Of a stretch of DNA of 64,000 nucleotides, positions 39,860 to 62,267 are shown one piece after another. How positions within the stretch are numbered: the stretch's first letter is position 1; every line of letters starts with the position of its first letter. A model generated the notes under the pieces. The model saw only the letters and a list, made by a program, of their open reading frames with translations. It searched no databases and was not told the DNA's origin. Made by a program: the position numbers and the translations under genes. The DNA comes from Hypoxylon rubiginosum (lineage: Eukaryota > Ascomycota > Sordariomycetes > Xylariales > Hypoxylaceae), in NCBI GenBank assembly GCA_902806565.1, contig CADCXA010000003.1, positions 1 to 64,000 on the forward strand, read 5' to 3'.

Positions 39860-40408
39860 TCGAAGTACAGACACATGAACACAGCTGCACTACGTTAGGA
39901 TTTAATACATGTCGGCGAGTAAATATGAACTACAACAAGTGTTCGTCTTGAGAACTCTATCCACTACCAGGGTTCGATGTCTCGGGCTCTCTGCATCTTG
40001 TCGAACTTCATGTTCCATAACCTTGTGCTAGGTGAAGTTTATGTCAGGGCTCTACCCTTCCGGTCTTCGAGTTACTGAAAAGGGGCTGGCAGTGTTGGCC
40101 AATTGAATAGTCTGCTGGTCCGGATAGGGGGGAAGGGCTTAGAAAGAAATAGGCGTCATTGTCTTCGTCTTCGGTTCCGCATTGTAGCAATAAGAGCGTT
40201 TCACAAGATAGTGTAGTTGGAGATGGCCAGTCGAGAAGGTGAGATAAACCGAGCTACATCTTTTGGACAACAATCACATCTACGAGCTTCGAGGCCTTAT
40301 TCAACGAGGCATTGGCCACGATTCCAGTTAAAAAGTATTGACATATCTCGTCTTAACCATTACTATCAGATGTTTCATGTAGATTAGCAATACTTATACT
40401 ATACCTAA
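39860..40408. other. Intergenic between the two clusters
   Basis: Convergent 3' ends (regulator on plus, oxoprolinase on minus) flank this stretch. No gene, palindrome or operator was recognised. Confidence 0.5.
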
Positions 40409-43400: not shown

Positions 43401-45113
43401 TCAGCGACAGCCTCAATCGGACTTATACGAGAACTTACCCTGCTGCTACCTGCTCTAGAGTAAACGTCACGGTAGACTCCTTATTGATCTCGATTGTGAG
43501 ATCCTCAAAGAGTCGCTGGCTGGCATCGATATCCAGTGGGAGATCTTCATTCGGCCCGAATATCTTGGGGAAGAATTCTGGTCTGAGACGACCCAGCACT
43601 AGATTGGCATCGGTAACTGTGAGTGGGCCGCCTTTCCGGTAGCAAGCTGGGCCTGGATGGGCAGATGCGCTGTCTGGGCCAACTTTAAACATCCCAGCTT
43701 CCCATTTCAAAATACTGCCGCCTCCAGCAGCTACTGTGTTGATATCTAACTGCGGGCTTTGAACAGTCACACCCGCCGTGGTAGTTTCAAATACTTGCTC
43801 TAGTTTGCCAGCATATCTGTTCACGTGTGTCAGTAATCGGAGCCGGGATAAGTAGAGAGGATGCTGCTATACCTAGAGACGTCTGTGCTTGTTCCTCCCA
43901 TATCAAACCCGATTACGGGTGTCTTGTCTTGCTCGACGTATGCAGTCTTCGCATATCCTACACAGCCTCCGGCGGGACCGGACAGGATAGCTCGTAAGCC
44001 CGAGAGACCGGAAAATTCTACGAGACCGCCGTCACTCTGCATAAACTCGCAGCGACATCCGCTTGATCGTAGATCTTCGAATCCGCTCTCGAAACCTTTG
44101 ATATATCTCTTGATCTCCGGAGTGAGGTAAGCATCTGCAGTAGAGGAATTACCCCTAGGCACGATCTTAATAGTTGGGGATAGCTCGGAGCTTAATGAGA
44201 TGTGCGTGAAGCCTATCTCTTCTGCGAGTTTCCCTACTGCTAGCTCATGGTCACGAAATGTGTAGCTATGCATGAGACAGATCGCAATCGACCGATAGCC
44301 CTCATCGTAAACTTCTTGGAGAGCTTCTCTTGTTGTCTTGGTATCTGACTGGCTGTTAGCTTCTGGGAATAAGACCGACACATTTCGTTTTTCGTATACC
44401 TAGTGGTTCTAATACTCTTACCGCCTCTCCTGTTATCCCCCGAACGAGTGCTGGGTCGGATTTTATGTCAATTGAGGCAAACGTTTTCTTCTCGGACCAG
44501 GCTTCGAGCGTCACTCTTTCTGTGACCTCGATAACCTTTGAATACAGTACATCCGGCTTATTGATCGCCATATCAAAAAGCTTTGGTCGAGATTGATTTC
44601 CAATATGCAGTAGATCCTGATCAACGGTTATCAATGAATTCTCTTCAACGTGATTGTGCGCAAGGGGCTTGTCTTTACCTTTAATCCTCTTGTGACAACG
44701 AAGGCGGTGCGCTCGCCCTTGCGCTCCAATAAAGCGTTGGTCGCGACCGTCGTTCCCATCTTTATCGATTCTTTCAACGTGTTAGAATAGTCACTGTCTC
44801 AAGTATAATCCATCCAACGCTCACGTACCAACTCCTCGTAGGGAAATCCTCTGCCCCTTGGGATATGGCTTTCCCGTGGCTTTCTCCAGCACCCGCCGGA
44901 TTGCTTCGACAGGAGCATCTGCATAGTTACTAGGGTCTACTGATAGGAGTTTGACCAAGATATCGGCCTGTCCTGGGACCATAGCAACACACTGAAGGAA
45001 TCATGTCAATTTTTGGTCTTGGCCGTCGGTGAGAGTGCACTAACGTCTGTGAATGTTCCGCCGCGGTCGATCGCAATGCGAATCCCCCGATGTTGCTCTG
45101 GTAGTGACCCCAT
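40409..45113 (-). CDS. 5-oxoprolinase-like ATP-dependent lactamase (HyuA-HyuB fusion)
   Basis: Thirteen exons starting at ATG 45113 give an uninterrupted 1305-aa protein, full length for eukaryotic 5-oxoprolinases. Introns: 44992-45044, 44771-44828, 44617-44678, 44363-44399 (only 37 bp), 43817-43872, 43389-43438, 42330-42385, 42183-42238, 42021-42075, 41686-41737, 41434-41490, 40875-41069. The N-terminal hydantoinase A half has [13 protein letters not shown] (phosphate loop), [33 protein letters not shown], and [17 protein letters not shown]. The hydantoinase B half has [25 protein letters not shown] and [15 protein letters not shown]. The reaction is ATP-driven opening of 5-oxoproline to glutamate in the cytosol. 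A related lactam is possible given the cluster. The same-strand aminotransferase lies upstream. A palindromic operator candidate lies 286 bp upstream. Confidence 0.93.
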
Positions 45114-45752
45114 TTTCGTAGGAGGTAGGGAGGAGAATTATGTTTCGCGTTTTGAAGTTCAAAGTATAGGGCTTCTCTAGAGAAGAGCTTGAAAGAGTTA
45201 AGAATGGGAGCATAAGGTTCTTTCCTCCAGCCAACATCATATAGAACAGAATCTTCTTCAGTCTACAAACTCCCCTATACCTACACCTAGGCCGCGATGT
45301 CGCGATTCCGCAGCTGCTCGCTGTGTTAGCTTACAAGCCAATCAAAAGCCGTCGCATACACTATCGCATACCTACCTCCTAGGTACGCTACTTTGCATGC
45401 TCCTCCCGGAGGAGCTAATTACGATGGCTTGCGTATCTCCGCCTCCACTACCACCGCATTAGCGGGGCAGGTCATGGTGAAGATAAGAGCACGGGGGGGA
45501 GGACGGAGTGGATAAACGGCACGTAATTTGTTTGGCAGGCCAATTCGCCTAGTTCTTGTATTATGTACCTGCTAGGCTTTGGGGTCTATGGCTCACGGTG
45601 CGACACTGTAAATTTACTGTAAGGTAGTACAGATGTGAGCAGCTGTTGACATTTGCCCGCAGCTGGCACCGAGCACCGCATAGCTTTACAGTGCTACACT
45701 ATTAATAACACAGTGAAAAAGATTTTGGTAGCGCGTGCTGTACAGCCTCCAC
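45114..45752. promoter_or_regulatory. Promoter of the 5-oxoprolinase-like gene
   Basis: Contains the inverted repeat GCTCCTCC-C-GGAGGAGC at 45399-45415, the first member of the cluster-wide motif set. TACCTCCTAGGTACG lies just beside it at 45374. A 66-codon frame at 45040-45240 is only the start of the oxoprolinase in another frame. Confidence 0.65.
45399..45415. promoter_or_regulatory. Cluster palindrome 1, upstream of 5-oxoprolinase
   Basis: GCTCCTCC C GGAGGAGC: perfect 8-bp arms around one base. It has the same half-site as the other sites listed at 47311, 50124, 55163, 57678 and 62003-62053, but with the arms in the opposite order (CTCCTCC first). Confidence 0.7.
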
Positions 45753-47080
45753 CTATCCCTTAACTGTCCTCACAGCGTCGTCTAGAGCTCTAGCAAAATA
45801 CGTGACGTTGCTTTCATTGAGACCCGCTATGGAAATTCTAGACGTGTCGGCCATGTAAACGTGATGTTTTTCTGCTTAGGGTTAGCGATGGGAAGAAATG
45901 TTTGACGCCTTGGCCTGCTCACTTTCGAGATATGCAACTTGTGAAGGGCTAATCCCAGTGTACCCAAACATGCCAGTCTGGTTGATCAGATGCGACCAGT
46001 CCCCAGGCGTCTGAAGACTCATCAACTCGTTGAATAGCCTGTGTCGCATTGACTTGATACGCCCGGACATGGTGATGAGATCCTTGGACCACTGCTCCGC
46101 GATCGCGGGTGTGCTTAAGACGGTAGCGGCAATTCTCGCTCCGTACGCTGGCGGGTTCGACACCGTGGCCCTCTGTACGTTCTCGAAAATTGAAGACATG
46201 ATGCGTGCCGTCTCCGCGGACCGTGTAACAAAGGAGACAAGACCGATCCGTTCACCATAGAGGCCCATACTCTTGGCGAAAGACAAGCAGATTGATGCTT
46301 CCAGTTTCAGGACATCCACAAAAAGTCGGATTGCCCAGGCATCCTCGTCGACTGATCCGGAGTTGAAGCCTAAATAAGCCGAGTCAAAGATAGGGAATAT
46401 GCCCTTTTCCTGTACTAATTTCCCAATTTGCTTCCATTGGTCGCGCGATGGATCGCAACCTGTCGGATTATGTGCACAAGCATGCAAAACTACGGCCGAG
46501 GTTGAGTCAGCTTCCCTGAGGCCGTTCATGTAGCTCTCAAAGTCGAAAGCACCGTCCTTATAGTAAGGTACGGATACGACTTGAAACCCGAGCGAGCTAA
46601 ATAGCAAGTGATGATTAGACCACGTCGGTTCAGTAATATATACCGTAGTGATCCTAGCATCTGCTTTCTTCAAGGCAAGCCCGGCAAGTAATAGTGCACC
46701 CGTACCCGATAATGCTTGACATGTTGCAACCTACACTCAATCAATAATTTGAAAAGATGCTAACCCGTGACTCTTTTACTTACTCGACCGTCCTCGTGCG
46801 CTTCAGTTCCGCGGAGAGCTAGTCTCACGGCTTCGTCTCGAAACGATTTCAAACCAGCAATGGGTAGATACTCGTGGCCGCAGTCACCAATCTCCTCTTT
46901 TGCCATACGGACAGATGGCAAAACCCACGGCTGGCCATTTTCATCGCGATAGGTCCCCTGACCTAGGTTGACCTTGTCACGATTCGAATCTGCTAGATAT
47001 CTTCTCGTTACGTCGAAAATAGCATCGGGTGGGACAAATTCGGCGTTATGAAAAAGCGAGTTCTGCTTCGTAGAGGACAT
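45753..47080 (-). CDS. Aspartate-aminotransferase-like PLP enzyme
   Basis: Three exons (47080-46784, 46730-45923, 45871-45753) with introns of 53 and 51 bp give 407 aa. An upstream in-frame ATG at 47101 would add seven residues. It is class I aminotransferase. VNLGQGTYRDENGQPWVLPS is the substrate-side N-terminal segment, TTVYITEPTWSNHHLLF and VLHACAHNPTGCDPSRDQW contact PLP, and SICLSFAKSMGLYGERIGLV carries the PLP lysine. MADTSRISIAGLNESNV, found only after the last intron, carries the conserved C-terminal arginine that binds the distal carboxylate. Dicarboxylic amino acids are therefore the expected substrates: glutamate, aspartate or 4-hydroxyglutamate. No mitochondrial presequence is evident. 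The position between an oxoprolinase and a DapA-type aldolase suggests it deaminates the product of ring opening. Confidence 0.92.
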
Positions 47081-47543
47081 GATGTTGGCGCCGGGTAGCA
47101 AGCAGGCTGATTCTATGAGATAATGTTAGGGAGACTGTTGACGAGATGTGAACTACCAAATTGGGTTTTCTACGGCATAGCTTGAGTTCTTCACCACAAC
47201 ATCATTCAGGGGTCGCATACCTACCCTAAGGTACCTACCAAGATACCTGAGCCATCTAGGCAGTGACTACTGCACATAGCCGCGACTAATTCTCGGCCCT
47301 AGTTCGAGCGGGAGGAGCCCCTTGTCCACCTTCGCGCTATTATCATAGTATATTACCAAATTGGGCAAGACTAGGGGTCGCCCGAGCGAAACCGGATAGG
47401 GAAGAAGGATCCACCACCGTGATAATTGATCTTTATAGAGTATTATATCTAGTATATGGCCTTATGGTTGCATGAAATACTAGAGTATCGATATTTCTAT
47501 CTGCATTTTGCAACCCTTTACAATTATCTAAACTCTTATCGTC
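47081..47543. promoter_or_regulatory. Divergent promoter of aminotransferase and aldolase
   Basis: GGGAGGAGCCCCTT near 47310-47323 holds the GGAGGAG half-site of the cluster motif with a degraded second arm. CTAAGGTACCTACC lies at 47225. Both genes start from this 460-bp region. Confidence 0.5.
47311..47322. promoter_or_regulatory. Cluster palindrome 2 (half-site), between aminotransferase and aldolase
   Basis: GGAGGAG followed by CCCCT. One arm is perfect and the other is degraded. It is the weakest of the set and is listed because of its position. Confidence 0.4.
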
Positions 47544-48537
47544 ATGGCTCCAGCTTGTCCCCCTCGCGGAATCTATGCGCCAGTGGTGGCTTTCTTTTTC
47601 GAAGATGAGACCTTGGATATTGAGTCGCTGAAGACTCATATCACTCGTCTTGCTGAAGCTGGTGTAGCTGGACTGGTTATCCAAGGCTCTAATGGAGAGG
47701 CACCACATCTACTCCACTCCGAAAGGAAAGAGGTCATCTCCACCGCGGCAGCTATCCTGAAAGAAAAGGGAAAGCCTGAAGCTGTTATCATTGCTGGTTG
47801 CGGTGCCCAAAGTACTCGTGAGACCATCCAGCTCTGTCATGAAGCTCAAGAGGCGGGTGCGGACTATGCCCTCGTCTTAAGCCCAAGCTATTGGGGTGGG
47901 TCTGCTTCAATGTTATTTTACCGGTGCTTGATTCTAATGCGCGTAAATAGTTGGGGCAATGCAACCGCCTACCATTCAGAAGTTCTTTACCGACGTGGCA
48001 ACTGCGTCTCCTATTCCAATCCTGCTATATAACTTCCCGGCAGTGACTGGGGGTATTGACCTCGATTCTGATCTCATAGCGAGTCTTGCGTCCTCCAATC
48101 CAACCAAGATCGTAGGGTGCAAGTTGACTTGCGGAAATCTGGGAAAATTACACCGCGTCGCTCACGACAAGCGAATCAAGACACCATTTGCCGCATTTGC
48201 CGGAAAGTCTGAGTTTTTCCTTCATGGATTGGTGGCTGGCTCACACGGACTCATCGGCGCAGCTGTGAATTTTGTTCCCAAAGTGCATGTGAAGTTGCTG
48301 GAACATTACGATGCGGGAAATCTGGCGGCTGCACAAGAACTGCAAACACAGCTGAGCGAGACAGATTGGATTCTTGTAAGGTCAGGGGTATCTGGATTGA
48401 AAGCATCTTTAGAAAAGTACTACCAATATGGAAGTGGGAGAAGTAGACGCCCTCTTAACCCGGTGCAGAGTAGCGTCTTTTCGGGGGAGAAGAATGTCAT
48501 CTTACAACAAATAGTCGAATTAGAGAAATCCCTATAA
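47544..48537 (+). CDS. DapA/HOGA-type pyruvate aldolase
   Basis: Two exons (47544-47895, 47951-48537) with one 55-bp intron give 312 aa. The TIM-barrel family signatures are present: GIYAPVVAFFFEDETLDIES, AGVAGLVIQGSNGEAPHL (substrate carboxylate loop), PIPILLYNFPAVTGG (catalytic Tyr) and PTKIVGCKLTCGNLGKL, in which Lys forms the Schiff base. Fungal relatives include 4-hydroxy-2-oxoglutarate aldolase-like enzymes and L-threo-3-deoxyhexulosonate aldolases, both of which release pyruvate. Next to a 5-oxoprolinase and an aspartate-type aminotransferase, 4-hydroxy-2-oxoglutarate to pyruvate plus glyoxylate is the most attractive assignment (inference). The C-terminus is slightly unusual (a run SGRSRRPLNPVQ). 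Confidence 0.9.
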
Positions 48538-48760
48538 GTCCTCTAGACTTAGGTTCATCGAAGCTTTAATAGACCTTCATCTTCCAACCGAAGCGAATAT
48601 TAGAGCCTGAAATCGATTATAAGGTGAGAGGCGGATGGTAAGGTACCTGTATAAGTAGTTTGCTAGTACCTTGGGTACGTAGACACAGTTTACAGCTTAT
48701 TCCAAGACACAGTAATTCTAGAGAAATGAGTGATTGAACTAGCTGCTATATACAACACCT

Positions 48761-49882
48761 TTAGGACAACTTGCTGACCTGGTTCACGAAATCCAGTACT
48801 GTCTCCTGAAAAGTCCTGAACTTGACAGCAGGGAAATCTTCTTCTACCGGTTTCCTATCTACATGAATGTGTGTTTTTACCTCCTGCACTCCGGACGATA
48901 TCTTGCCCTGTAATGACGGGAATGCTTCGTTCATGGTTTCCGACGCCATCTGGTACGTGAAAGGCTCTGGAGCAACCGGAACATATCGTTTACCGCCGCA
49001 AGGTTTATTTTCGAGCGATTGGACATGTATCTCAGCCAAGTCCCTCACGTCTATCCAGAAATTGAAACGACAGGGCGGCAGCGCCACGGACGGACCGCTT
49101 GAGGCAACTTTCCATAATAGCCGGTTAGATTCATTAAGATCTTGGATCGACGACGGGGCCTTGGCTAATGGACCGAAGACCATAGAGGGACACAAGGTCA
49201 CAAGATCGAACTGGGGTTTCTTCTCTTCAACGAATTTCCAAGCTTCTTGCTCTGCTATCGTCTTAGATCCCCGGTACGCATCTTGAGGAGTTGCAGTAGG
49301 AGCCGCAGCTTCTTTGAACGTGATGGGGTTCCAGTCTTTAGATGAATATACCCACGGCACGCTCTCTTCTCTGGCCATGTCAAGTACTGCACCGAATGAT
49401 GATGTTAAGACCACCCTCTTCACACCAGATTGCGCAGCTGCTTCAAGTACAGAGCGAACACCCTGGATTGCCGGCAATATGAGATCTTTCTCATAGTCGT
49501 CGACATCGTATTTCAGGGGCTTGGGATCAGATATTAATTGGATTTAGTCTCAAAGAATCTATAGAGCCTCTGAACTCACACTTGCAATATGGATAATCCC
49601 ATCGATATCTCTGACTGCATCATCGAAAACGCCCGGAGTACTGAGATCGTCTATGAAGAAGAATTCTAGCTGAGAGGCAAATTCTGACCTTGCAGCTAAG
49701 AAAAGGTCTGCTTTCTGTTTTGATCGAGCAACAGCCCGAACCTTGATCCCCCTGCCCAAGAGGTTGTCAACCACATGAGACCCAACCAAGCCTGTGGCTC
49801 CGGTAACTAGGACGTGACTACGTAACAAGTTAACTTCTACTGCCTATCGTGGAAGGGTATACTATGCTCACCGTGCTCCCAT
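48761..49882 (-). CDS. NAD(P)-dependent epimerase / dihydroflavonol-reductase-like (extended SDR)
   Basis: Three exons (49882-49872, 49817-49580, 49519-48761) with introns of 54 and 60 bp give 335 aa. The first exon encodes only MGAR and splits the arginine codon. HVLVTGATGLVGSHVVDNLL is the cofactor motif, GIIHIASPLKYDVDD is rebuilt by splicing, KRVVLTSSFGAVLD supplies the Ser strand and DAYRGSKTIAEQEAW supplies Tyr-x-x-x-Lys. The family contains yeast Gre2-type aldehyde/ketone reductases. It probably reduces an aldehyde or keto acid produced in the pathway. It is divergent from the first GST, with the best cluster palindrome between them. Confidence 0.9.
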
Positions 49883-50509
49883 TTCGAATATTGTGCGATA
49901 ATCTATTTTCAAAGTGTGTATACTGAGATCGGTTCTTGCGGGCTACTCTATTCACTTCTTTGAGCGGTCCTGGTTCAATTTTCCTGTAGTCTATACGTTA
50001 GCGGCCACCTCGGCAATCTCGCCGAGACCGAGAATGTTCGTTAGGCCAAGCCGGACTATGTGGAGTAGAGGCGGACTACTTCTAGACTGGTCAACAGTGG
50101 AGCTTCATAGGTAGACTTGAGCTGGAGGAGCTCCTCCCACCTCTTTCGATAATCTCACCTATCAACGACGAGTAAGGATACAGGCCAATTTTTCGTGGTG
50201 TCGCTATCATCGTAACCTTAACGATGGCAACGAATGGGATTATATTGTGTGAATGATACGTAATCTCGAAGGAGCTCTCAAACCGTTCAAGCCGGCACAT
50301 ACACTCGCCGCCGTTCATCGGCGCTGAGCCATGGCGCAATTGAGCTCCTCATAAAGTAATCACCCGAGTTCATCAAGTACATTCTACTTCCTTTGGATCA
50401 TTTACCTACCTATTCGTAAACCCCCATCGATGAGGGATTCCTACATCGCCTCTCATCTTTCTGTATACATCTGACTGAACATACTCTTGAAAAGAAGCAA
50501 ATATTCAAT
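49883..50509. promoter_or_regulatory. Divergent promoter of the epimerase/reductase and GST-1
   Basis: Carries the perfect palindrome GGAGGAGCTCCTCC at 50124-50137, plus partial copies GGAGCTC near 50270 and GAGCTCCTC near 50342. No coding sequence is recognised. Confidence 0.7.
50124..50137. promoter_or_regulatory. Cluster palindrome 3 (perfect)
   Basis: GGAGGAGCTCCTCC, a 14-base perfect palindrome, 242 bases upstream of the epimerase start and about 370 upstream of GST-1. Confidence 0.75.
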
Positions 50510-51314
50510 ATGTCGTTCGGAAAGCTTTACACGTACCCCAAGGCGCCTCGCTCGACGATGGTTCTATTCGTCGCCGAGTATAACAAGTTGGATGTTGAGA
50601 TATGTAACGCTTTTCCTATCAAGGTTTATACCGAGAAGGGTGGCGTTGGCGATGAGTACTTCTCCAAGTTCCACACGGGGAAGGTACCTGCCCTGGAGAC
50701 AGCAGATGGATTCTGCGTCTATGAGAGCATAGCGGTGGCTTGGTTCTGTAGGAACCCCTGAGCATCCAATCCCTTAGTACACGAGCATTCTAACAAAGCG
50801 AGCAGTGGCAAAACAAGATCCCAACACTAAGCTTATCGGGGCTAATCTCAAAGAAGAGACTACAGTTCTCCGGTGGGCGTCATTCACCAACTATGAGCTT
50901 CTACCACCGATCATGGCCTGGATCAACCCAATTACCGGCCGGGCACCATCCAGCCCAGAAATCTTGGTGAAGCTAGAAGAGGGCTGTGAACTCACCATCC
51001 GCGCAGTGGAGAAAGAGATCAAGGGGAAGCAGTACCTTGTAGGCGACTACTTAACTCTGGCAGACTTGTTTGTTGTCTCTGGTCTAGCAAGAGGTTATCA
51101 ATACGTACGTACAGGTTTATATCCATCACTTTGAGTTATATCTAACTTGCACCCGTAGGTCTTCACGAAGAGTTGGGCAGAGAAGCACCCCATTGTACAT
51201 GATTATTATATGCGGGTCAGAAACGATCCGCAAGGAATATTCGACCGCATACTGGGGAAACAGGTTATTCGGGATGAGGCCGGTGGCACATACCCCGACT
51301 ATGACGGCCTATGA
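50510..51314 (+). CDS. Glutathione S-transferase, eEF1B-gamma-like (GST-1)
   Basis: Three exons (50510-50747, 50806-51104, 51159-51314) give 230 aa. The first acceptor is a tandem GAGCAG, so 50803 could be used instead and would add one residue. The thioredoxin-like N-domain runs MSFGKLYTYPKAPRST to FHTGKVPALETADGFCVYES, with the Val-Pro and Glu-Ser glutathione contacts. The helical C-domain has KQYLVGDYLTLADLFVVSGL, the N-capping box typical of GSTs resembling the elongation factor 1B gamma N-terminus. It is about 60% identical by eye to GST-2 at 62.3 kb but lacks two of its introns. It likely conjugates or isomerises a reactive intermediate of the cluster pathway (inference). Confidence 0.92.
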
Positions 51315-51639
51315 AACCCGTCAGGAGGAGGTAGTTACTAGCAACTTATCTAGCGAAAGATATAGCGTGGTTCTAATTTCTTACCTAAATTTACATGCTA
51401 GGCCAGTTGTCACTTTTGCTGTTGATGAACCTTCAATAGGGGTTACATTATGAACCTCACGTAGTTCGGTGAAGCCGGTCTTCGTATGAAAATGCCTGGG
51501 AAACACGTAGATATAGATATGAAAGCTTCAACCACTAGCCATCTTCGTGGTTATACTGACGTTCCAATGATTCCAATCAGGGGACCAATGGCCCTGCCAA
51601 TGGTATTGGACTGGGGACATCAATCCCCAAATAAGCAGC
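51315..51639. other. Short intergenic, convergent 3' ends
   Basis: Lies between GST-1 and the C2H2 regulator, which end towards each other. No gene or operator seen. Confidence 0.5.
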
Positions 51640-54271
51640 TCAATTTACAAGCTCGGGATGGAGTAAGTTAATCTTGTCCCTTCCCTCTTCCCGGGTTTCG
51701 TTAAATACGGCAACTACCCACCCGCCCAGGGGCCAGATTGTTCTTGTAGTGAAAGTACGTTGCATCCATTCTAAGTATTTTGCCTCGGTAGCACTGATTG
51801 TCCCAAGTTCATCGAGGTACTTATTGCCATCGGCAGCTCCCGGTGAAGAACCACCTCCCATATTCAGAGCCTCTATCACTTTCGATAGAATAACCTGAGC
51901 CGATACGGAGTAGATACTTGGCATCCTTAAGTGCAGGATCTCGGAGCCAAGCATAAAAGGTTGCTCAAGTCCCAACACCATGAGACGCACTACGCGCCAA
52001 CCCATCATACACGCTTTGAAGCCAAGCATAGTAATAAATGGATCCTCGATACATGGTGTACCGTTCGTGACCCCCATCGAGTCTCTCGTCACAGAGCCTA
52101 TGGGAGGGGATGTTAACATCTTGATGATTGATTCCACATTGTCGACCACGCGCATTACGTCTCGATCCTCGTAAATGTCGCGGTGTACCTTTGCCCGTGG
52201 CTTTCCGAGCTCCCAAGCGGTTGAAATGGCTGTTGGCAAGCTATACTCTACAATACCACTCGTAAGTAGAGCATCTTGGTGAGTTAAAGAAATGGCGGTG
52301 TAGTGCCAGGCCATCCAAACAGGGTGCCAAAGGGCCGCGCCGATGTGATTATTAGTAGGATCACTGCCGACCACGATAGGCCAGGTAGCGGAGTCATGCC
52401 TAGGCATCAGCTCGGCTAGGTTATTGAGTGCCTGCATGATCGGAGCTCGGTTCGCTTCTGTGATGATAGATAGGCCGTGCCGTGTGTCGTCGCACCGAAT
52501 ATTATTGTACAGGAAGGTGCTCGCGAGGGTCAATTCGCGAGTCATCATTGATATTTGGATGACAAGCATAAGCGACGCAAACGAGGAGTACCAGAGTAGT
52601 CCGAGCGGGCGGGCGGTGGGATCGGGATTCATCAAATACATCAGAGTTTCGTAGAGGTCTCCTTGTGCAGGTCGAGGTTCACCATTTGCGTCAATGTCGT
52701 CTTCCTCATTGAAAGATAATTCCGGCGCTTGCACTAGAGCGTTCCAAGCGGTCGCCGAAGGAGCTGACCAAACATCGTCTCTACACGGTACTGTAGTAAT
52801 CAGAGTCAGTAATTGTTACGTGTTCTAAATGGTAAAAGAGACAGGTGGAGGCTTCATCTCCTCGGAATGAGGGGCTAATATGACGGTAGACACCAGGAGG
52901 GGACGTGATAGATGACAGATCACAATACTCACATTCGTACTTGACCTCGAGTGCAGTGAGCAATGGTCTTATATTGCAACAAATCGAAAGTTGGGCATCA
53001 AGGTAGTATAGACAGTAAATAGTACTATACGAGTCAGCAGTGGTCGATCAGATGTAAAATTTGCCTAGGTACTCACCGTTTTCTTGATTCGTTTTCAATA
53101 AAACGGTGCCAGGCATGCTCGGGCGAGGATGAGTTTGCCAAAAAGCTATCGACAGGGACACCCCTTTGACCTGGTGATGTCCCACTGCCACAACCTCCGG
53201 CCAAAGTTCCATCTTGTAGTAATTGATACTGTCTAGCAGAATCGATGATCCTACGATGGATTTTCATGGCGATAGGGAACAGATCATCGCGACAACTGTA
53301 CAAGGCATAATATGCCAAGATAATGTAAGCTTGTATAACCCATGTCTTCCGAAATCTCGAACGGTCTTGTTGAACCTGGCATTAACATTAGCTATGAGCA
53401 TATGCTGAAGATGGGAGAACCGAAATTACATATGTATCCAGAGACCTTAGGCCAGCCTCGAACAGAGCAGAGCTGATGTCCTGATTACATCTGGGTGAGT
53501 GGTACAAGGCACCAATACAAGCGACTGCTTGTAGTAGCGGTTCTTTGGCGGTGGCAGCATCAAACGTTGGTCGGTGAATTGCCGGAAAAGAAGGATAAAA
53601 CCTTTCAAAAAACGCGCCGATAAATTGAGGGAGTTTGAAAAGCCAAGAAATGTTTTGGGGCGTAAACATGTCGGATGTTGGAGCCGTACTCTAGGTAGAT
53701 ACAATATTGTTAGAATTGGACAAGTATAGGGGTCTATGGTCCCTTACAGCATCATCTCTGGGAAGGAGAGGCGAGTGTTGTTCGAATGTTGCCCCTGGAA
53801 TAGCTTGGGCAGAGGATAGGGGTCCCGAATGTCCTTGCCCCGGAGACATCTGCTCTGAGGGGTTAGGCCCAGCCGAAGGCAACTGCTCTGCCGTAACTTG
53901 TTGAGGATGACATTTTCTGATATGTCGTTTCCTTAGATCACTTTATGGTAAGTTAGCATAGGTTCAAGCCTCTTCTGGTTAATGATCACGGACCTTCTTG
54001 AGAAGCTCACATCGCACTGAGGGCACGGAAATGGTCTTCGGTTGGACTTTCTATGGACTTGACGTGTGTCAGAGCTGGATCGAACAATGCCTTGGATATG
54101 CCTTGGATATATCAATCATTTACCGGAAGCAGTATGTCGATTCAAATTCTCCTGGAGAGATGTTAGAAAGTGACAAACCAAGCCATGAATGAAGCGTACT
54201 TGTCTTGTAAAGCGACTTGGGCAAGCAGGACAGTAGAATGGCTTATTATTCTCAGTACTAGTGCTATCCAT
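51640..54271 (-). CDS. C2H2 zinc-finger plus fungal_trans transcription factor
   Basis: Eight exons (54271-54200, 54151-54124, 54057-53994, 53940-53748, 53690-53430, 53375-53077, 53024-52933, 52790-51640) give an open 719-aa frame. Introns are 48, 66, 53, 57, 54, 52 and 142 bp. Two classical fingers appear only after splicing: YCPACPSRFTRQENLNRH then TASVH, and FPCPQCDVSFSRSDLRKRH then IRKCH. A Pro/Ser-rich linker follows, then a fungal_trans-like domain (FERFYPSFPAIHRPTFDAA, ESRKRTIYCLYYLDAQLS, RPLLTALEVKYELPCRDDVW). C-terminal helices follow, including WPLGGWVVAVFNET. It lies in the middle of the 40-63 kb cluster and is the natural candidate for binding the GGAGGAGCTCCTCC sites, since C2H2 factors often bind AG-rich or CT-rich DNA. 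This is inference. Confidence 0.9.
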
Positions 54272-54913
54272 CTTTATGATATCGGTAGGTGCTTCTGGCG
54301 CCGCGAGGGGACTAGAAGCCCCCGTATAGCGAGAATAGAACTAGAACATGTATATATAGACACTACTGAATTGAATGCGACGATGGTGACGATAACGTGA
54401 TTGCAGTCAGGACCAGTAGTGAGGACAAGAAATAGAGGCGAGATAATGTGAGAATCATTAACTAAACAAGGATGCGGATATCGTGGGGTAAAGTTGTGGA
54501 GAAGACAGCGCCGTTGATACGAAGATAGTCTTAAGGGGGGACTAATGAGACTAAGCTGATAGCGGTTTACGTTACATAGATTAGGGGTAGGTAGTAGCTT
54601 ACATGACTACTATAATATTCAGTGAAGAAACCTCTGGCATACTTGCGTCGTCTTCTCTCCAAGGTAGGTAAGCAAGATATACACTTGGGACAGACTATGA
54701 TCTAATGACTTTGCAGGTCTACCTACGCAGGGACTGGAATTGAATCCATTACATTACCCCGCAATCGCCCTACAGTTTCGTTGGAGCCTTCTATTTGGGA
54801 GGTTGCTATATGTCATTGAACTGTAGGTAGGTCGGTGGGTGGTTTCATAGTCAGTTGGGAACAAGTGTGAAGATGAGATACCGAGCTAGGGCGTCAATTT
54901 GATCGGCAGCACT

Positions 54914-55058
54914 TGATAAGGCTTATCGATAGGCTACTAGGTCTGCTAGGTATGCTGACTAAATTTTGGCCAATGAGAATTCAGGAATTGGATAAAATCG
55001 TCAAGGCAAATTCCATTGGCTCAAATTAGTCAGCTTGGCCCACCGATAAGCCTTATCT
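54914..55058. mobile_element. MITE-like imperfect inverted repeat (about 145 bp)
   Basis: The left end reads GATAAGGCTTATCG then GCTGACTAAATTTTGGCCAA then TGAGAATT. The right end, read on the other strand, is GATAAGGCTTATCG then GCTGACTAATTTGAGCCAA then TGGAATT. The arms are about 55-60 bases with small gaps around a loop of about 25 bases (near CAGGAATTGGATAAAATCGTC). No coding capacity. It could be a miniature transposon or a regulatory hairpin. Each end also holds an inverted GATAAG pair (GATAAG-G/C-CTTATC), the consensus for fungal GATA factors. Confidence 0.7.
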
Positions 55059-55162
55059 ATGCGGCGGAGCGCGACGACGCGTTGAGAATGTACATATTCT
55101 CACTAGGGCTTAGCGGCTGCATACGTCCTCTCGGTTCCCCCACAGAATGACTAGCGGCAATG

Positions 55163-55176
55163 GGAGGAGCTCCTCC
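55163..55176. promoter_or_regulatory. Cluster palindrome 4 (perfect)
   Basis: GGAGGAGCTCCTCC, identical to the site at 50124. It lies 358 bases upstream of the dioxygenase start and about 890 upstream of the C2H2 regulator. Confidence 0.75.
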
Positions 55177-55533
55177 TCCGTCCTCACCTTTGAGATGCTT
55201 TGAACCATTATTGGAGCTCTTTGCAGTACGCGCGCCTTGGTTCAGTGTGGCTTCGGGGTGCAGGATGGGGTGCAGCAGCGAAGTCGCAAACGTATTCGAT
55301 CTTCGATCTCGATTCGTGCCAAGTCATGAAGGAATACCCCTTCTTAGGAAGCCGGAGGCTTCGTCACCCGTGTATATCTATTCGTTTAGGGTGTCTATTT
55401 TTGCCTCGATAAGATAGCAAGATACTTCAGCCGAAAGACGCAACTTCTCTTCTACCTATAATCCCAAGATAGGCTATCGTAGAACTGGTCTTCCAACCAA
55501 TAGTCATCACGCATAGTCGCCATCATAGTCGCC

Positions 55534-56886
55534 ATGTCTCTGCCTCCTTACACGCCGGCAGCGTCTACCAAGGAGCCCTGTAAGTAATTCACCTGCGTTC
55601 AGCAGAAATGTCTTCGTGTTACCAAAGCTAATACCAGTATCTAACTGTAGTGGACTATGTCAAGCTTGTCAACCTCGACCTTTCCAAGTTCGATGATCCA
55701 GTCGGACGTCAAGAGCTTGCTGAAGAACTCTACGAGGCTGCAACTGGATATGGTTTCTTAACGCTCACTAACCATGGCATCTCCGATGAGGTATTATTTG
55801 AATTCTATGTTTTGAACTAAAATGGAATGGTTCCTTACAAGACATTTTGTATTAACAGGTTTCAAGGTCTACAAGAGACAGATGCAGATTGCGAATGCAG
55901 TCTTGACTCTCCCTCCACAGGAGAAGGCCCCTTACGAGGGTAGGATTCCTAATCTCGAGCCCCTATTGTCCAGGCCGCTAATTTTTACAATAGTCACTCC
56001 CGAGGAAGATGCCCGAGGACTGTACGTTGGCTTCAAGCCGGCCGGCCCGCTTGGCCACAAGGGAGGCTTCCCCAAGCAACTCGACCATTACAATATCCTT
56101 GTCCACGATCCCAAGAACCGCCCCCACCCCGAGATCTTGCGACCTCACCTAGAAGAGACCCACGAGGTCATGCATTTCATCCGAAACAATATTCTAAAGA
56201 AGTTACTCACCTTGATGGCGATGATTCTACAAGTTCCCGAGGAAGTGGTGCAGTCTACGCACGCACCGGGTGGTTCCAAGACAGAATACATTCGCTACAT
56301 GATGTGCGAGCCTCGTCCCAAGGAGGAGAGTGAGAAGTACCGTGATATTTTCCTCTCCGGCCACACCGACTGGGGCTCATGGACTTTCCTCTTCTCGCAG
56401 CCCATTGCTGCACTACAGGTCCTGGACCACACCGACGGTCAATACCGCTGGGTTGAGCATCAACCCAAGGGTCTAGTTGTCAACTTCGGCGAGGCTACAG
56501 AGCGCCTCACCGGCGGCCTGTTCAAGGCTACCATTCACAGAGTGGTTCAACCCCCTGTAGATCAACGCCAGCTTCGACGCATTGGTGTCATTTACTTCGC
56601 CCGCCCGGCCGATGACCGTGAACTAGTGCCAATCGAGGGATCTCCTCTCTTAGAGTCCTTGGGAGCCGACAAGCCCATAGATGACAGGATTTTCTGCATG
56701 GCTGACTACTTGGACGCTCGGAAGCATGGCTGGAAGCGCTTTGAATACGATATCGACAGACCCGCCGACTCCAAGAAGCACGCTGACTTCTTCGCTGGTG
56801 AATACCCAGATCCCGAAGGCCACAAAAGTTTAGGAAAGTTTGACAACGTTCCGAGAGACGTCTACGTCCCAACCTTGAAAGCTTGA
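55534..56886 (+). CDS. Fe(II)/2-oxoglutarate dioxygenase, isopenicillin-N-synthase-like
   Basis: Four exons (55534-55579, 55651-55790, 55867-55939, 55994-56886) give 383 aa. The N-terminal DIOX_N part has VKLVNLDLSKFDD and GYGFLTLTNHGISDE. The splice to VYKRQMQIANAVL uses a CAAG acceptor at 55866. The third intron (55940-55993) is 54 bp, a multiple of three and free of stops, so a retained form would still be translated. The C-terminal jelly roll has the iron ligands in LSGHTDWGSWTFLF (His-x-Asp) and FKATIHRVVQPP (His). RRIGVIYFARP supplies the likely 2OG-binding Arg, with Gly where RxS is usual. It probably hydroxylates or oxidatively modifies a pathway substrate. Confidence 0.9.
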
Positions 56887-58270
56887 ATGATTGATATGGA
56901 AGATTTGGTTTGGTTAAGGCAGCTTCCTTAGCTCCGTCATGGTCAGTTCTGAATTCCTGATGGCGCATATTCATTACTGCGCTGCTGGACATCGTAACAC
57001 GGCGATTGTCTTTAGATTAGCAGTACAATGGTAGTTTCACGATAACTAGATGCGATTGCTTCACTTGCTTCTTGCTGCTCCTGTCTTTAGCTCCGAACCA
57101 AGGATGGCATTACGTCTGTGTTAAAGTTACTCTGTACACTATACTATATCACCCCGGAGAACTGGGATATCCAAATCAGTCATTACCTATTCATTCTTAC
57201 TATAGTTTCGGTTAGACGTTGATGTATCACGACCCAGTATAACACTTACAATATATGTACTTGCCGTATTATACATGTGTAGGCCCTCGCGGTCAACACG
57301 AATACCTGGCCATTCCCCCCTAATATTTGGTAACTGCACCTAGTATGCACCTAGTAGATCACCTGTAATACTTTTAGAGTAGAATTCTAGAATTCATCTA
57401 TATCATTACCTAGGTATGTGCGCTCGCCCTGCCAGCCAGGTCTAACTACCTGCATCACCAAGGGGCAATATTACAAAAGACCTAGATACTAAAGAAGGCT
57501 AAAAGGCCGAGATGTCGCATCTGACGTCTCTCGCCTGGAAAAGGACCACATTAGCTGCAACCATCGATCAGCCGTGGTGGCGTTGGCAAGATCCTCGTCC
57601 AGGACCTAGCTGGTATATCTCTATCATGCAGTTTATGATGCATGGTGAGTGAGAAGCAGGTAAGGTTGTTGATGCCAGGAGGAGCTCCCCCCAAATTCAT
57701 AATCAACTTCTCCACTTCCCTGATAGCTTAGCTTCTACCCGGCCTAGGATAGTAACATGAATCCCCAAGTCCCTCGTGCTAGTACGTCTTAGCTTATCAA
57801 ATATGGACAAGATATCCATTTACATGAAATTCTATTGGTCTATCGCCACGAAACTTAGCTCGCCTTGGTCTATTCTTGATCAAAGTACTTCGTATTTCTC
57901 GTTAATCACCGAGGGCGTGGCTACCCCGGTCGTCTAATTTGTACCCCATAAGATTCGTAGCTTAAACGATAAGGACAGTTCAGATACCTTATTAGCTTGA
58001 AATACCTTGGCCTTGGAGTAATGCTGGCCTTACAACATGGAGCACCACTGATTCAACGCTTTGGCCAACGCTCTCTTAAGGCCCCTGATGTTGATCCGTA
58101 GATATAGAAGACACTTAAGTTGCTTCGAAGTTCCGCAATTTCTTCCAAGATCGGAATCCTCAACCATCTGGGAACAAGCAAACCAAGTCGATACTACGAC
58201 GTCTTTCACAGCACAAAGTCGGCTTCAGTAGGCATCTAGGGCTCTACATTCCACCTTGAGCGCCGACGTC
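56887..58270. promoter_or_regulatory. Intergenic, promoter of the Dal5-type transporter
   Basis: About 1.4 kb without a recognised gene. Holds cluster palindrome 5 at 57678-57691 and a TTACCTAGGTATG word at 57408. Confidence 0.55.
57678..57691. promoter_or_regulatory. Cluster palindrome 5 (one mismatch)
   Basis: GGAGGAGCTCCCCC, differing from the perfect palindrome at a single base. It lies about 580 bases upstream of the transporter start. Confidence 0.6.
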
Positions 58271-60077
58271 ATGGCTCCTTTTAAGGACATAATGCACTAC
58301 TTTCGGGGGGAGCAGATATCGGCTCTGGAGAAGAAACTTGTCTTCAAAATGGACTTTTTCATTCTTACGTTCTGTTGTCTTGCCTATTTCATGTGAGTCT
58401 CGGGCATAACTTTTAAAGAATTTCGTCATGAAGCAAAGCTTACTAACTGGTTGATAGGAACTATCTAGACCGCGCGAGCGTTGGCCAAGCCTATGTATCC
58501 GGGATGCAAGAGGATCTACACTTTCAAGGAGCCCAGCTAACCGAGGTCAACACTATGTACTCCGTGGGATATCTCTTGTAATGCTCTCTCTTTACCCTGG
58601 CTTCCTATGCTGTTTCGCTGACAAGTCATTCTACAGAGGCATCATCCCAAACAACATGCTGCTCACCTACTTCAAGCCCGGAAGATTCTTCCCATTCATG
58701 ATCGTTGTTTGGGCTTTACTTACCATGTGCAACGCTGCTGCTTCGAGGCCTCAGCACTTGATGGCCATTCGCTTTTTCCAGGGCTATGCCGAGTCTTGCA
58801 TCTTCGCAGGAACACAGTACATACTGGGTTCATGGTACACCAAGAAGGAGCTCGGGAAAAGAACTGCCCTCTTCACAGCTAGTGGTTTGGCTGGTGGCTT
58901 ATTTGGCGGGTTTCTCCAAACAGGAATCTATCGGTCAATGAACGGGCTTGCAGGCCTGCCTGGATGGAGATGGCTTTACATTGTCAGTACTTCAATGATC
59001 ATCGGCATACCTACTTCTTACTAACTATAAGGAAGATTGACGGAATAATCACTCTTCCAGTCGCAGCCTATGGCTACTTCTTGTTCCCTGATGTCCCCGC
59101 TACGACTAGAGCTCCTTACTTCAACGAAGAGGAAATACAGCTGGCTAGATCACGAGTCCCAGTTGTTGAGGAGACCAGCATACTAAGTCGCGACTTTGTT
59201 TCCAGAGTCTTCAAGTTATGGTACTTTTATGGCTTCGGCTTCTTATGGATCCTGGGCAACTGCTCCGAGTCTTTGGGTAACCAATCGCTCATGAATCTTT
59301 ATCTGAAAGGCCACCCAGAAGAACATTGGTGAGTAAAACCCTCGTCTCACATGTTGATGAGTTTGCTAACATGTGTTTAGTACGTGAATTATATTAAAAA
59401 GGGAAACGACAAGAAAATTGGAAAACAACGCTAACAGATGTTCGTAGACACCGTATATCAACTCAACAATTATCCTACCGGTTTACAAGCTATTGGAATC
59501 GTAAGCACGCTGATGTGGGCCTTCGGCACCGATATCTTTGGCAGGCGATGGTTATCTGGTTATTATGTGGCTATTACAGCTATCTGTGTTGGAATCATCC
59601 TCCTTGTCCCTGACATGCCGAAGTCAGGGCAATATGCAGCATATTATTGGTCTGGATCTATTTACTGTATCCAAGCAACCTACTTTGCCTGGGCCAACGA
59701 TTCTATGCGTCACCAGCCGCCGGCCCTCCGAGCGGTGGTCATCGCCTGCATGAACTTTGGAGGAAACGTGTTCCAGGCCTGGTGGCCGTTGGTATTCTAC
59801 AGGGCTAACGACGCACCGAACTTTACCGTGAGTAGTAACTTCTGCCGCTGCGACCTGAAGTCAATGTCTTGTACTAACAATCAAGCAGAGAGGCATGTAC
59901 GCTTTGATCGGTGTTGGAATATTAATGGCCATCTGGGTCAGTGCCATGTTATACATGGAGAGGAGCTATGCTAAGAAACATATGGACGTCATCGATGCTG
60001 CTGAAGCGTCAAGCAGCCATGGAACTACTCACCATGTTATCACCGCAGGCGACAAAGGCTTGGATAGCAAGGTTTAG
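58271..60077 (+). CDS. MFS transporter, allantoate/pantothenate permease (Dal5/ACS) family
   Basis: At least six exons (58271-58392, 58458-58577, 58637-58982, 59036-59328, 59438-59827, 59889-60077), about 490 aa. Signature segments: FILTFCCLAYFMNYLDRASV rebuilt over intron 1, YSVGYLLGIIPNNMLLTYFK over intron 2, MAIRFFQGYAESCIFAGTQY, FTASGLAGGLFGGFLQTGIY, WRWLYIIDGIITLPVAAYGY over intron 3, and LNNYPTGLQAIGIVSTLMWA. It imports organic acids, vitamins or amides by proton symport, and a cluster substrate such as an acidic lactam is plausible. Between 59328 and 59438 the frame needs one extra base (mod 3), and a simple intron gives a stop. A small exon in this gap or a disruption must exist, so this junction is unresolved. 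Confidence 0.82.
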
Positions 60078-60779
60078 AATTAGGGCCATTGAGATTGACG
60101 CAAGTTTGGGACATTGGGAAATTAGCTTAGCGATGAAGACTGCACTGTTATTCTAATGGGCTTCGAATTTGAAGAGTGTTTGTTGCTTTCTATTATATAA
60201 AATCGACTAAATCAATGACTTTGGTACTTGTACCTTCGGCCAACTTCGAGCAGACCATACGAATGTTGATCTTTAATAGAGGGATAGAGAGATACCCCTT
60301 TTATACCATAGGTCACATCGGCTAGCCGAGGCTTTCCCCCCTATTCTAGCCCCTTTTTCATTTTCTAGCCACTACGGAAGTTGGATTGCTCGCCGCAAAA
60401 TAATACAATTTAGGTCATCATAACTTCTTGACTCGGAGCTTCCCAATAGCTCATTTCATCAGTTGTAAGAAGAATGAAATTATTTGCATTCGAATTTATT
60501 CCACAAGGGGCACTGTGGCCTTGTACAAAGGTACCCGGTGTTTAAGGCATTAGTGTGCTGGGTTATGGGGCACTTAGCATTTAAGGTGCTAAACTTTAGG
60601 CAATTTAGTGGCTACGTGCGCGACGATTTCCTCAATTGTTGCGCAATGCCCGAAAGTCAACGAACTGATATTGGACACCATAAGATCTATACCATCTATT
60701 CCATCTATATCGATATGATTAAAATCCTCTATCCCAAATGAAGCAAGTTAGTTGGTTCGCGTTCTTCGGCGCCTTGTGA
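60078..60779. other. Intergenic, no gene recognised
   Basis: Convergent 3' ends of the transporter and the HIBADH-like gene. An 85-codon frame at 60484-60741 shows no domain. Confidence 0.5.
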
Positions 60780-61834
60780 CTACAGCGTACCATCTCGCTC
60801 CTTGCATTGCTCCGTGAAGAAGTCTAGGCCTGCCTCAGTTCTAATAGTGCCGTACATTGAGCTGCTGTCCAGCGGCCGATCGCCTACCAGAGTTCTTGCC
60901 TTTTCCATATGTCGCAAAGCGACCTCACTGACTTCAATCCTGGTATTGGCTTCTTTAGCACAGTTCAATGCGTGCTTGGCGTCCTTGATTGCAAGCTGCA
61001 CATCAAATCCTGCCTTGCCACCCAGCGCCGGCGCGTAGGCACCAGTCGTCAGCCTCTTGGAGTAACTTTCTAGCACCGGCCCAAACATGTCCCCTAACAT
61101 CGTCTCGAGAATAGCTGAGCCAAGTCCGGTCTTCTCAGCAAAAACGTGGGCTTCCGAGATAACCTCCATGAAGGAAACAACGCAGATATTGCCTGCGATC
61201 TTAAGGAGACTGGATTTGGATGCATCGGAACCCATCTCAATCACCGAACGGCCCATTACACCGTTCAGGTAGGGTGCAATCTTTGACGTCGCTGTCCGGG
61301 GTCCTGCTGTGACGAAGATGAGTTTACCCGCCTCGGCCATGAGTGATGCACCGAAAACAGGTGCTTTAGAAAATATTAGTATTTCCTATATTCAGACGGA
61401 TCCTTCTGTCTTACCTGCGACGAATTCTGCACCAGCTTCGGAAATTTGCTTAGAAATGGCCGCCGAGGTGTCTGGATGAACAGTAGAACAATCGACATAC
61501 ACCTTGCCGCTAATGCTTCCGGATGTCACGATATCGTTAGCGACTTGTTGAAGAACCGCATCATTGCTAACCTAAAGGAACGGTTAATGAAGTTACATCT
61601 CAGGATGGATGAAGCACTGACGCATGAAAATATTATGTCGCATTTTTCTACCACGTCGCTAACGCTTTCCACAGGAATACCCCCTAACGCCTTCAACGAG
61701 TCGCCGCGAGATAGGGTGCGGTTAGTGAAGATTAACGGCGGTGCAGCGGAGCTCGAAAGATACTTCTGGAGATTTTTGGACATGCCAATTCCCATTGACC
61801 CCATGCCAATCCACCCTAGCTGCGTTGTAGCCAT
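60780..61834 (-). CDS. 3-hydroxyisobutyrate dehydrogenase-like (beta-hydroxyacid dehydrogenase)
   Basis: Three exons (61834-61622, 61571-61415, 61363-60780) with introns of 50 and 51 bp give 317 aa. TQLGWIGMGSMGIGMSKNL is the NAD(P) motif. FSCVSNDAVLQQVA and VYVDCSTVHPDTSAAI (substrate-binding DxST) are restored by splicing. APVFGASLMAEAGKLIFVTA is the next conserved strand, and ASKSSLLKIAGNICVVSFME holds the catalytic Lys and conserved Asn. The family includes tartronate-semialdehyde and glyoxylate/succinic-semialdehyde reductases. If the aldolase releases glyoxylate or another semialdehyde, this enzyme could reduce it (inference). Divergent from GST-2 across a 433-bp promoter. Confidence 0.92.
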
Positions 61835-62267
61835 CTTGAACGAGATACTTGAACGAGATACTAGAACTTCGACCCTTGGAACATCAAAATAATCTCTCGA
61901 CTAGCCGACTCTTATTCAGACGAATAGACATTCGAGGGCCGATCGCGGGAGTTCATATCACAGATGATGGTGTCCGGTATCAATTATGGCTCTCGCTCCG
62001 GCGCTCCTCCGCCCGTTGCGCAAGTGGCCCACAGCTGATAGGGGAGCTCCGCCGGCAAGCGTGGGACAATTCAATCGGAATTAGTCACATTGATGGAAAT
62101 AGATGATAGTCAACCCCCTGAGGTGCGTTGGAGATTTATATATTCACCTTGTCGTCGAGACTCTATAGACCAGATAGGACGTTCCTTTCTTGCTATAAGA
62201 CAAAATTGCTAGGATTCTACCAACACTGACCCTTTTGAATTCGCATCCGCGAACCCCTATAGTAAAA
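61835..62267. promoter_or_regulatory. Divergent promoter of HIBADH-like gene and GST-2
   Basis: Contains the half-site GCTCCTCC at 62003-62010 and AGGGGAGCTCCGCC at 62040-62053, which matches the cluster palindrome at 11 of 14 positions. Confidence 0.5.
62003..62053. promoter_or_regulatory. Cluster palindrome 6 (half-site plus degenerate palindrome)
   Basis: GCTCCTCC (62003-62010) and the degenerate AGGGGAGCTCCGCC (62040-62053), centred between the two divergent start codons. Confidence 0.45.

Follow-up and report, generated by a model that had tools for sequence, protein, structure and literature searches.

What, if anything, places the ten genes of a cluster in the ascomycete Hypoxylon rubiginosum under common control? 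The first 64,000 bases of contig CADCXA010000003.1 (615,641 bases long; assembly GCA_902806565.1), one of the 70 contigs of a 48.27 Mb genome, contain the cluster, and this whole stretch is referred to here as the window. Running from a 5-oxoprolinase gene to the second of two glutathione S-transferase genes (GST-1 and GST-2), the cluster includes a gene for a C2H2 zinc-finger regulator. A sequence-only reading of the window had proposed that a single palindrome, GGAGGAGCTCCTCC, marks every promoter of the cluster and that, as a shared operator, it would define an undescribed regulon. What the present analysis strongly supports is a shared cis element concentrated in the cluster, on the grounds of its rarity in the genome, its presence in all six intergenic regions that contain start codons, and its behaviour against shuffled and random controls; that the element is an operator, and the ten genes its regulon, is what we infer from this. 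A regulatory reading of the element is likely, and, with a probability of roughly three in four, the copies of the half-site GGAGGAGC would be operators for the C2H2/Fungal_trans regulator encoded at 51640-54271.

A half-site shared by the six start-bearing regions

All ten start codons of the cluster fall in six intergenic regions, I1 to I6, of 639, 463, approximately 630, 1262, 1384 and 433 bases (4.8 kb). Since four divergent pairs account for eight of the ten genes, these six promoter regions serve all ten. The window holds 12 copies of GGAGGAGC, nine of which are located in the six regions (2, 1, 2, 2, 1 and 1, respectively), as compared with 0.21 expected there from the 2113 copies in the genome. 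The chance of finding the word in all six regions is 8.4e-10, uncorrected for the choice of word and region. The remaining three copies, at 32437, 38979 and 41529, are inside stop-free frames that run for 252, 168 and 108 codons, and none is present in the three start-less intergenic regions, although with a total of 1251 bases and approximately 0.05 copies expected this absence carries little weight. The genome search may skip very common words; its placements of GGAGGAGC within the first 64 kb match an independent count of 12.

Of the 4328 8-mers found in the six regions, none other than GGAGGAGC occurs in all six. When the regions were shuffled 1000 times with dinucleotides preserved, the best-shared 8-mer was present in three regions in 833 of the shuffles, in four regions in 165, in five regions in two and in six regions in none; among 1000 random genomic sets of equal lengths, drawn from positions 1-44 kb of the window and 64-114 kb of the same contig, it was present in two regions in one set, in three in 710, in four in 280, in five in nine and in six in none. 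The background used for 8-mer sharing includes stretches chosen for their near-copies as well as one stretch of the window, which makes the k-mer test conservative. Related patterns behave likewise in the six regions, with the core GGAGCTCC present four times (0.07 expected, given 670 copies in the genome) and GNGGAGC present 15 times, a number that none of 1000 shuffles attained (mean, 2.24). The pattern GNGGAGCTCCNC, which has 40 genomic copies as compared to 71 for its backwards-read control, occurs four times in I3 to I6 and nowhere else in the window. The observation is well above chance.

The palindrome and its arrangements

The full palindrome is present in some promoters only, and the claim that it marks every one of them stands for the half-site, which occurs in three arrangements. 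The sites are as follows.

45399..45415, no strand: outward-facing pair GCTCCTCC-C-GGAGGAGC, approximately 294 bp upstream of the 5-oxoprolinase start
47311..47318, plus strand: single half-site GGAGGAGC, halfway between the diverging starts of the aminotransferase (234 bp) and the aldolase (230 bp)
50124..50137, no strand: perfect palindrome GGAGGAGCTCCTCC, flanked by the starts of the reductase/epimerase (248 bp) and GST-1 (380 bp)
55163..55176, no strand: perfect palindrome GGAGGAGCTCCTCC, flanked by the starts of the C2H2 regulator (898 bp) and the 2-oxoglutarate (2OG)-oxygenase (365 bp)
57678..57691, plus strand: palindrome with one mismatch, GGAGGAGCTCCCCC, lying 587 bp upstream of the major facilitator superfamily (MFS) transporter start; GNGGAG fits both halves
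62003..62010, minus strand: single half-site GGAGGAGC, flanked by the starts of the dehydrogenase (172 bp) and GST-2 (262 bp)
62041..62052, no strand: degenerate palindrome GGGGAGCTCCGC, of the form GGGGAG-CTCCGC; GNGGAG fits both halves

Site centres are thus 172 to 898 bases from the starts. At 50124 and 55163 the two halves abut head to head, and they do so with one change at 57678, whereas at 45399 they face outward, with three bases separating two 6-base footprints. Both of these perfect palindromes had been noted in the sequence-only reading, as had the reversed-arm version with one central base at 45399 and the one-mismatch copy at 57678, and all four proved to be present, the positions having been right to within one to three bases. 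At 47311 and 62003/62040, where half-site or degenerate copies had been reported, sites do exist; they are single half-sites, the one at 62003 lying beside the degenerate palindrome at 62041.

The two perfect copies of GGAGGAGCTCCTCC are the only ones in the genome. Counted with up to one mismatch, there are 18 genomic sites, three of them inside the 17.2 kb span of the cluster, where 0.0064 would be expected. With up to two mismatches there are 265 sites, as opposed to 429 for the backwards-read control; the shuffle expectation for such matches in the 64-kb window is 0.21, and one further copy of this kind, with two mismatches, lies at 38979 within the 168-codon stop-free frame. For the outward-facing form, GCTCCTCC-N-GGAGGAGC, the copy at 45399 is the sole perfect one in the genome, and 23 sites have up to two mismatches (control, 59). 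The idea of a shared operator therefore survived the genome-wide count, in that the palindrome is not equally common elsewhere.

These counts bear on the suggestion that the pattern is due to chance, to base composition or to local duplication of a small element. The window was selected because the pattern had been noticed, and base composition could give rise to a purine word rich in G+C; however, the backwards-read controls, including that of GGAGGAGC (3789 genomic copies versus 2113), are commoner than the words themselves, and sharing among six regions was never seen in either set of 1000 controls. The flanks of the copies, compared by eye, are unlike each other beyond the core, which argues that the copies are not one duplicated segment. 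We regard an origin of this sort as highly improbable.

A candidate reader encoded within the cluster

The presence of a C2H2 regulator inside the cluster, also part of the sequence-only reading, was borne out by the gene model at 51640-54271. The predicted protein has two N-terminal zf-C2H2 fingers, at about residues 12-35 and 43-66, with the Cys/His spacing read in the model, followed by a Fungal_trans domain (PF04082) at residues 144-356 (E = 2.2e-27). Finger 1 has the recognition helix RQENLNR and finger 2 the helix RSDLRKR. Under the standard finger code, contacts by R, N and R specify GAG and contacts by R, L and R specify GNG, and hence finger 2 and finger 1 together predict 5'-GNGGAG-3'. 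Abutting inverted GNGGAG pairs are found in four of the six regions, and the palindromes that depart from GAGGAG, those at 57678 and 62041, differ at the N position only, which is more telling than the fit of GGAGGAGC itself.

Alignments with homologues of the regulator span 97-98 % of the query, the closest named match being from Jackrogersella minutella (79 % identity). When the query was aligned with 22 of 46 homologues, the contact residues of finger 1 (R-N-R) proved to be kept in 22 of the 23 rows and those of finger 2 (R-L-R) in 21 of the 23; the rows that depart from this are gapped or truncated. Within its own genome, the regulator's best match outside the window has 27 % identity over Fungal_trans, and so there is no close paralogue. 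Taken from its predicted helices, the in-cluster C2H2 protein is a well-fitting candidate reader of the element.

Linkage in other fungi

As a proxy for linkage, regulator and enzyme matches from the same or nearly the same source were paired when they lay on equally long contigs, and locus tags were also considered; on large contigs such pairing is loose evidence of linkage. The genes covered were the regulator (46 matches), the GSTs (70) and the aldolase (the best 120 of 1853). A GST or aldolase partner was found for 18 of the 46 regulator matches, and in one of these pairs (Ilyonectria) the species names differ. The shorter contigs are the most informative; those shared by the regulator and a GST include the contigs of one source (41,481 bases), Hypoxylon sp. 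NC1633 (51,482 bases; GST-2), Aspergillus ellipticus (134,193 bases) and Stylonectria norvegica (136,964 bases), the last with the adjacent tags G7046_g1239 and g1240. Among the best 120 of the 1853 aldolase matches, that of J. minutella shares a 135,030-base contig with the regulator, those of Cylindrodendrum hubeiense (G7Z17_g9079/g9080) and Neonectria ditissima (AK830_g4731/g4733) are, respectively, next to and close to a GST gene, and that of Biscogniauxia mediterranea shares a 31,721-base contig with a GST. These pairings indicate that regulator, GST and aldolase genes are linked in other Pezizomycotina, and the protein matches point to a wide distribution there of the cluster or at least some of it. 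A broader proposal seems to us slightly better than even: that a C2H2/Fungal_trans regulator family, with helices nearly unchanged across the Pezizomycotina, would control an undescribed ten-gene, glutathione- and nitrogen-linked catabolic or detoxification pathway via abutting inverted GNGGAG half-sites.

Proposed mechanism and competing explanations

If the cluster-encoded regulator is the reader, its finger 2 would read the 5' GNG and its finger 1 the 3' GAG, with one protein covering GNGGAG, usually followed by C. Two proteins would occupy inverted half-sites, head to head as GNGGAG-CTCCNC, at 50124, 55163, 57678 and 62041; two would face outward across three bases at 45399; and 47311 and 62003 would each take one protein. 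A single regulator could in this manner switch all ten genes via six promoter regions. The parts of this scheme that we infer are the binding, the finger reading, the geometry of the dimer, the sign of the effect (activation, not repression) and control by an inducer via Fungal_trans; activation is assumed by analogy with HxnR, the regulator of the hxn (nicotinate) regulon of Aspergillus nidulans (PMC5746545). Since one site lies in the promoter region of the regulator gene itself, autoregulation is likely. An in-cluster reader would explain why the element is present in every start-bearing region and concentrated in this cluster, why it matches the fingers and why it is free to vary at N.

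Several points weigh against this interpretation. With regard to the sites, the regulator start is approximately 898 bp from its own palindrome, and three arrangements instead of one are unusual. With regard to the counts, word and region were both picked after inspection, and the shuffle and random-set controls cover the word and not the region; the random sets mix coding and non-coding DNA; GNGGAGCTCCNC was devised after the sites had been seen; and GNGGAGC is not enriched across the whole window (30 copies, 31.5 expected), so that its excess in the six regions is local. The finger match is subject to similar reservations: GGAGGAGC contains GAGGAG and thus fits GNGGAG by construction, helix position 4 of finger 2 is R instead of a hydrophobic residue, and fungal two-finger proteins commonly have G-rich targets, which renders the fit permissive. 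Linkage, too, is incomplete, as the regulator of B. mediterranea is on a contig other than that of the aldolase, the best aldolase matches of Hypoxylon sp. NC1633 and S. norvegica are off the regulator contig, and Exophiala dermatitidis has equally long contigs, yet distant tags (ABEF91_000195 for the regulator and ABEF91_000117 for the GST).

The element may instead be a real shared operator that is read by another protein, either a global regulator (CreA, Msn2-like or Adr1-like) or the Zn2Cys6 regulator encoded at approximately 37.35-39.9 kb, where a Zn2Cys6 motif at 37352 adjoins a Fungal_trans ORF. GGAG cores are common in the targets of fungal two-finger proteins. An Adr1 UAS1 oligonucleotide has TTGGAG halves (PMC6769490). 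However, the sites of a global regulator should not concentrate in one cluster, and on the counts of the corresponding motifs the CreA, stress response element (STRE), Adr1 and CGG types were each rejected as the shared element. The CreA motif SYGGRG occurs 22 times in all but is missing from the aminotransferase-aldolase region; that total is attained in 48 of 1000 shuffles, which is near the 5 % level and makes a contribution from CreA possible. TTGGRG, for Adr1-like proteins, occurs eight times, with two regions lacking it (61 of 1000 shuffles reach the total), the STRE AGGGG of Msn2-like proteins is missing from one region (69 of 1000), and CGG-N(0-11)-CCG, the Zn2Cys6 type, is missing from four of the six. 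Another reader is therefore, in our judgement, unlikely.

Somewhat more plausible, if still doubtful, is that the cluster regulator reads the sites but represses, or that some sites are unused and the regulon is smaller than ten genes, a view that overlaps with the preferred one and does not exclude it. The lone half-site at 47311, the distance between the regulator start and its palindrome, and the outward-facing arrangement in the oxoprolinase region are all in its favour. On the other hand, the word is present in all six regions, as a ten-gene regulon needs, and each of the six genes of the hxn cluster depends for its induction on HxnR, the nearest described type (PMC5746545).

The six regions also contain 34 AreA-type HGATAR sites, as compared to a shuffle mean of 20.9 (five of 1000 shuffles reach 34), and 13 of them are in I4, the region between the regulator and oxygenase genes (54272-55533; one of 1000 shuffles). 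This modest signal would fit joint nitrogen control, by analogy with the hxn regulon (PMC8478523).

Comparison with known regulators

Pathway-specific regulators of fungi are generally of the Zn2Cys6 type, with C2H2 proteins being exceptions and HxnR the case in point (PMC5746545). The regulator described here is HxnR-like by predicted architecture and cluster position, as HxnR also has two N-terminal C2H2 fingers plus PF04082 and is encoded inside its cluster, which similarly includes MFS and 2OG-oxygenase genes and bidirectional promoters (PMC5746545, PMC8478523). The predicted HxnR site, GHGGGG or, when relaxed, GNGGDG, is reported there as having no experimental determination (PMC8478523); it is close to the GNGGAG proposed here, where the narrower GNGGAGC is enriched. 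There are also differences. HxnR has 865 residues rather than 719, Fungal_trans is nearer to the fingers in the protein from H. rubiginosum, and the accessible portions of those papers describe no palindromic operator for HxnR. Furthermore, neither a molybdenum hydroxylase nor a flavin oxidoreductase is among the Pfam families assigned to the ten genes, in a scan that covered one exon each of the oxoprolinase, aminotransferase, reductase and transporter and in which hxn proteins were not used as queries.

Adr1 acting on UAS1 of yeast ADH2 offers a second parallel, consisting of two C2H2 fingers and a palindrome of two GGAG-containing half-sites, but the TTGGAG halves of UAS1 face outward across eight bases (PMC6769490), and TTGGRG is not significantly enriched here. 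The Adr1 structure 2adr was matched by the regulator; many zinc-finger chains score higher, and the match is unspecific. Zn2Cys6 regulators differ from the C2H2 regulator in having another DNA-binding domain and CGG-type sites. Those of the GliZ type (PMC7022936) are comparable in that one in-cluster regulator acts on the promoters of the cluster.

In searches of an open-licence library, judged by titles, no account of the cluster and nothing relevant on the enzyme combination turned up, and those matches to the 11-mer that were listed were, by title, to animal or human work. If the broader proposal made above is true, there would be a sequence-supported operator for a type of C2H2 pathway-specific regulator whose best-described member, HxnR, has predicted sites only. 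That a regulator of HxnR architecture comes with a rare, cluster-concentrated palindrome fitting its predicted reading permits a direct bench test and provides a pattern for scanning genomes, and the putative operator would be a handle on an undescribed pathway.

Copies outside the cluster

The other 15 genomic copies of GGAGGAGCTCCTCC with up to one mismatch are in stop-free frames of 64-1315 codons, at least 113 codons in 14 of the 15, which is expected of coding sequence without being proof of it. Regulon members beyond the cluster were rejected within the scope of this survey, which also listed ORFs around 10 genome sites and two neighbours on the contig. A minority of the 36 GNGGAGCTCCNC sites outside the window were looked at; one, on genome contig 69 at approximately 429,325, falls within 428,484-429,356, where an aldolase paralogue has its coding match, and is an instance of a copy that coding sequence explains. 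A rightward extension of the cluster was discounted, as 64-114 kb holds one GGAGGAGC, at 66505 within a frame of 137 codons, and one GGAGCTCC, at 71870 within a frame of 72. So was a second copy of the cluster, the paralogues of the regulator, GST-2 and the aldolase being distant (36-48 % for the enzymes) and not together; on contig 37, GST and aldolase pieces are approximately 90-110 kb apart. Eight stretches in a viral collection matched a pattern, and none encodes a relative.

The ten genes and their surroundings

The predicted gene models were built by hand from splice signals, with domains assigned using Pfam; for the oxoprolinase, aminotransferase, reductase and transporter, one exon each was scanned.

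41000..45113, minus strand: 5-oxoprolinase / hydantoinase A+B (start 45113, 3' end approximate; PF01968, PF02538 and PF19278 on exon 42344-43480; three-frame reading, partial model)
45753..47080, minus strand: aminotransferase class I/II, 407 aa (PF00155 on exon 45883-46730; gene model)
47544..48537, plus strand: DapA-family pyruvate-type aldolase, 312 aa (PF00701; gene model)
48761..~49882, minus strand: NAD-dependent epimerase / 3-beta-HSD-like reductase (PF01073 and PF01370 on exon 48764-49543; 5' exon unclear, start read from sequence)
50510..51314, plus strand: GST-1, 231 aa (gene model and Pfam)
51640..54271, minus strand: C2H2 regulator, 8 exons, 719 aa (gene model, Pfam and homologues)
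55534..56886, plus strand: 2OG-Fe(II) oxygenase, 383 aa (gene model; DIOX_N and 2OG-FeII_Oxy)
58271..~60077, plus strand: MFS transporter (end approximate; PF07690 on exon 58626-59021; partial models)
60780..61834, minus strand: 3-hydroxyisobutyrate-dehydrogenase-like protein, 317 aa (PF03446 and PF14833; gene model)
62268..63142, plus strand: GST-2, 211 aa (gene model and Pfam)

The best named protein match of the aldolase is from Hypoxylon texense (96 % identity), and its best PDB match is 3qfe, a putative dihydrodipicolinate synthase family protein, followed by 3s5n, a mitochondrial 4-hydroxy-2-oxoglutarate aldolase. None of the aldolase, dehydrogenase and oxygenase reached an NCBIfam cut-off. 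As a matter of conjecture, the oxoprolinase, the aminotransferase and a pyruvate-forming aldolase might degrade hydroxylated pyroglutamate or glutamate, and the two GSTs might point, equally conjecturally, to an electrophilic substrate. Relatives of GST-1 and GST-2 are often labelled 'elongation factor 1-gamma' in databases, and a regulator homologue in Phlyctema vagabunda bears the same label, which looks misplaced. Introns in the models of the regulator, oxygenase, transporter, dehydrogenase and GST-2 (51640-62750) include some that end in AAG rather than CAG or TAG, and at 59329-59438 the transporter has no continuous model, reflecting either an unrecognised intron or a broken gene.

To the left of the cluster, a Zn2Cys6 motif followed by a Fungal_trans ORF (37352-39860) lies beside a sugar-transporter ORF (35666-36724), and this neighbour is a second regulator, probably of another gene set. 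Farther left, three ORFs at 23843-27292 and 31910-32665 have weak, below-cutoff Pfam matches to the CHAT, PNP_UDP_1 and P-loop families, and are possibly parts of fungal NLR-like genes.

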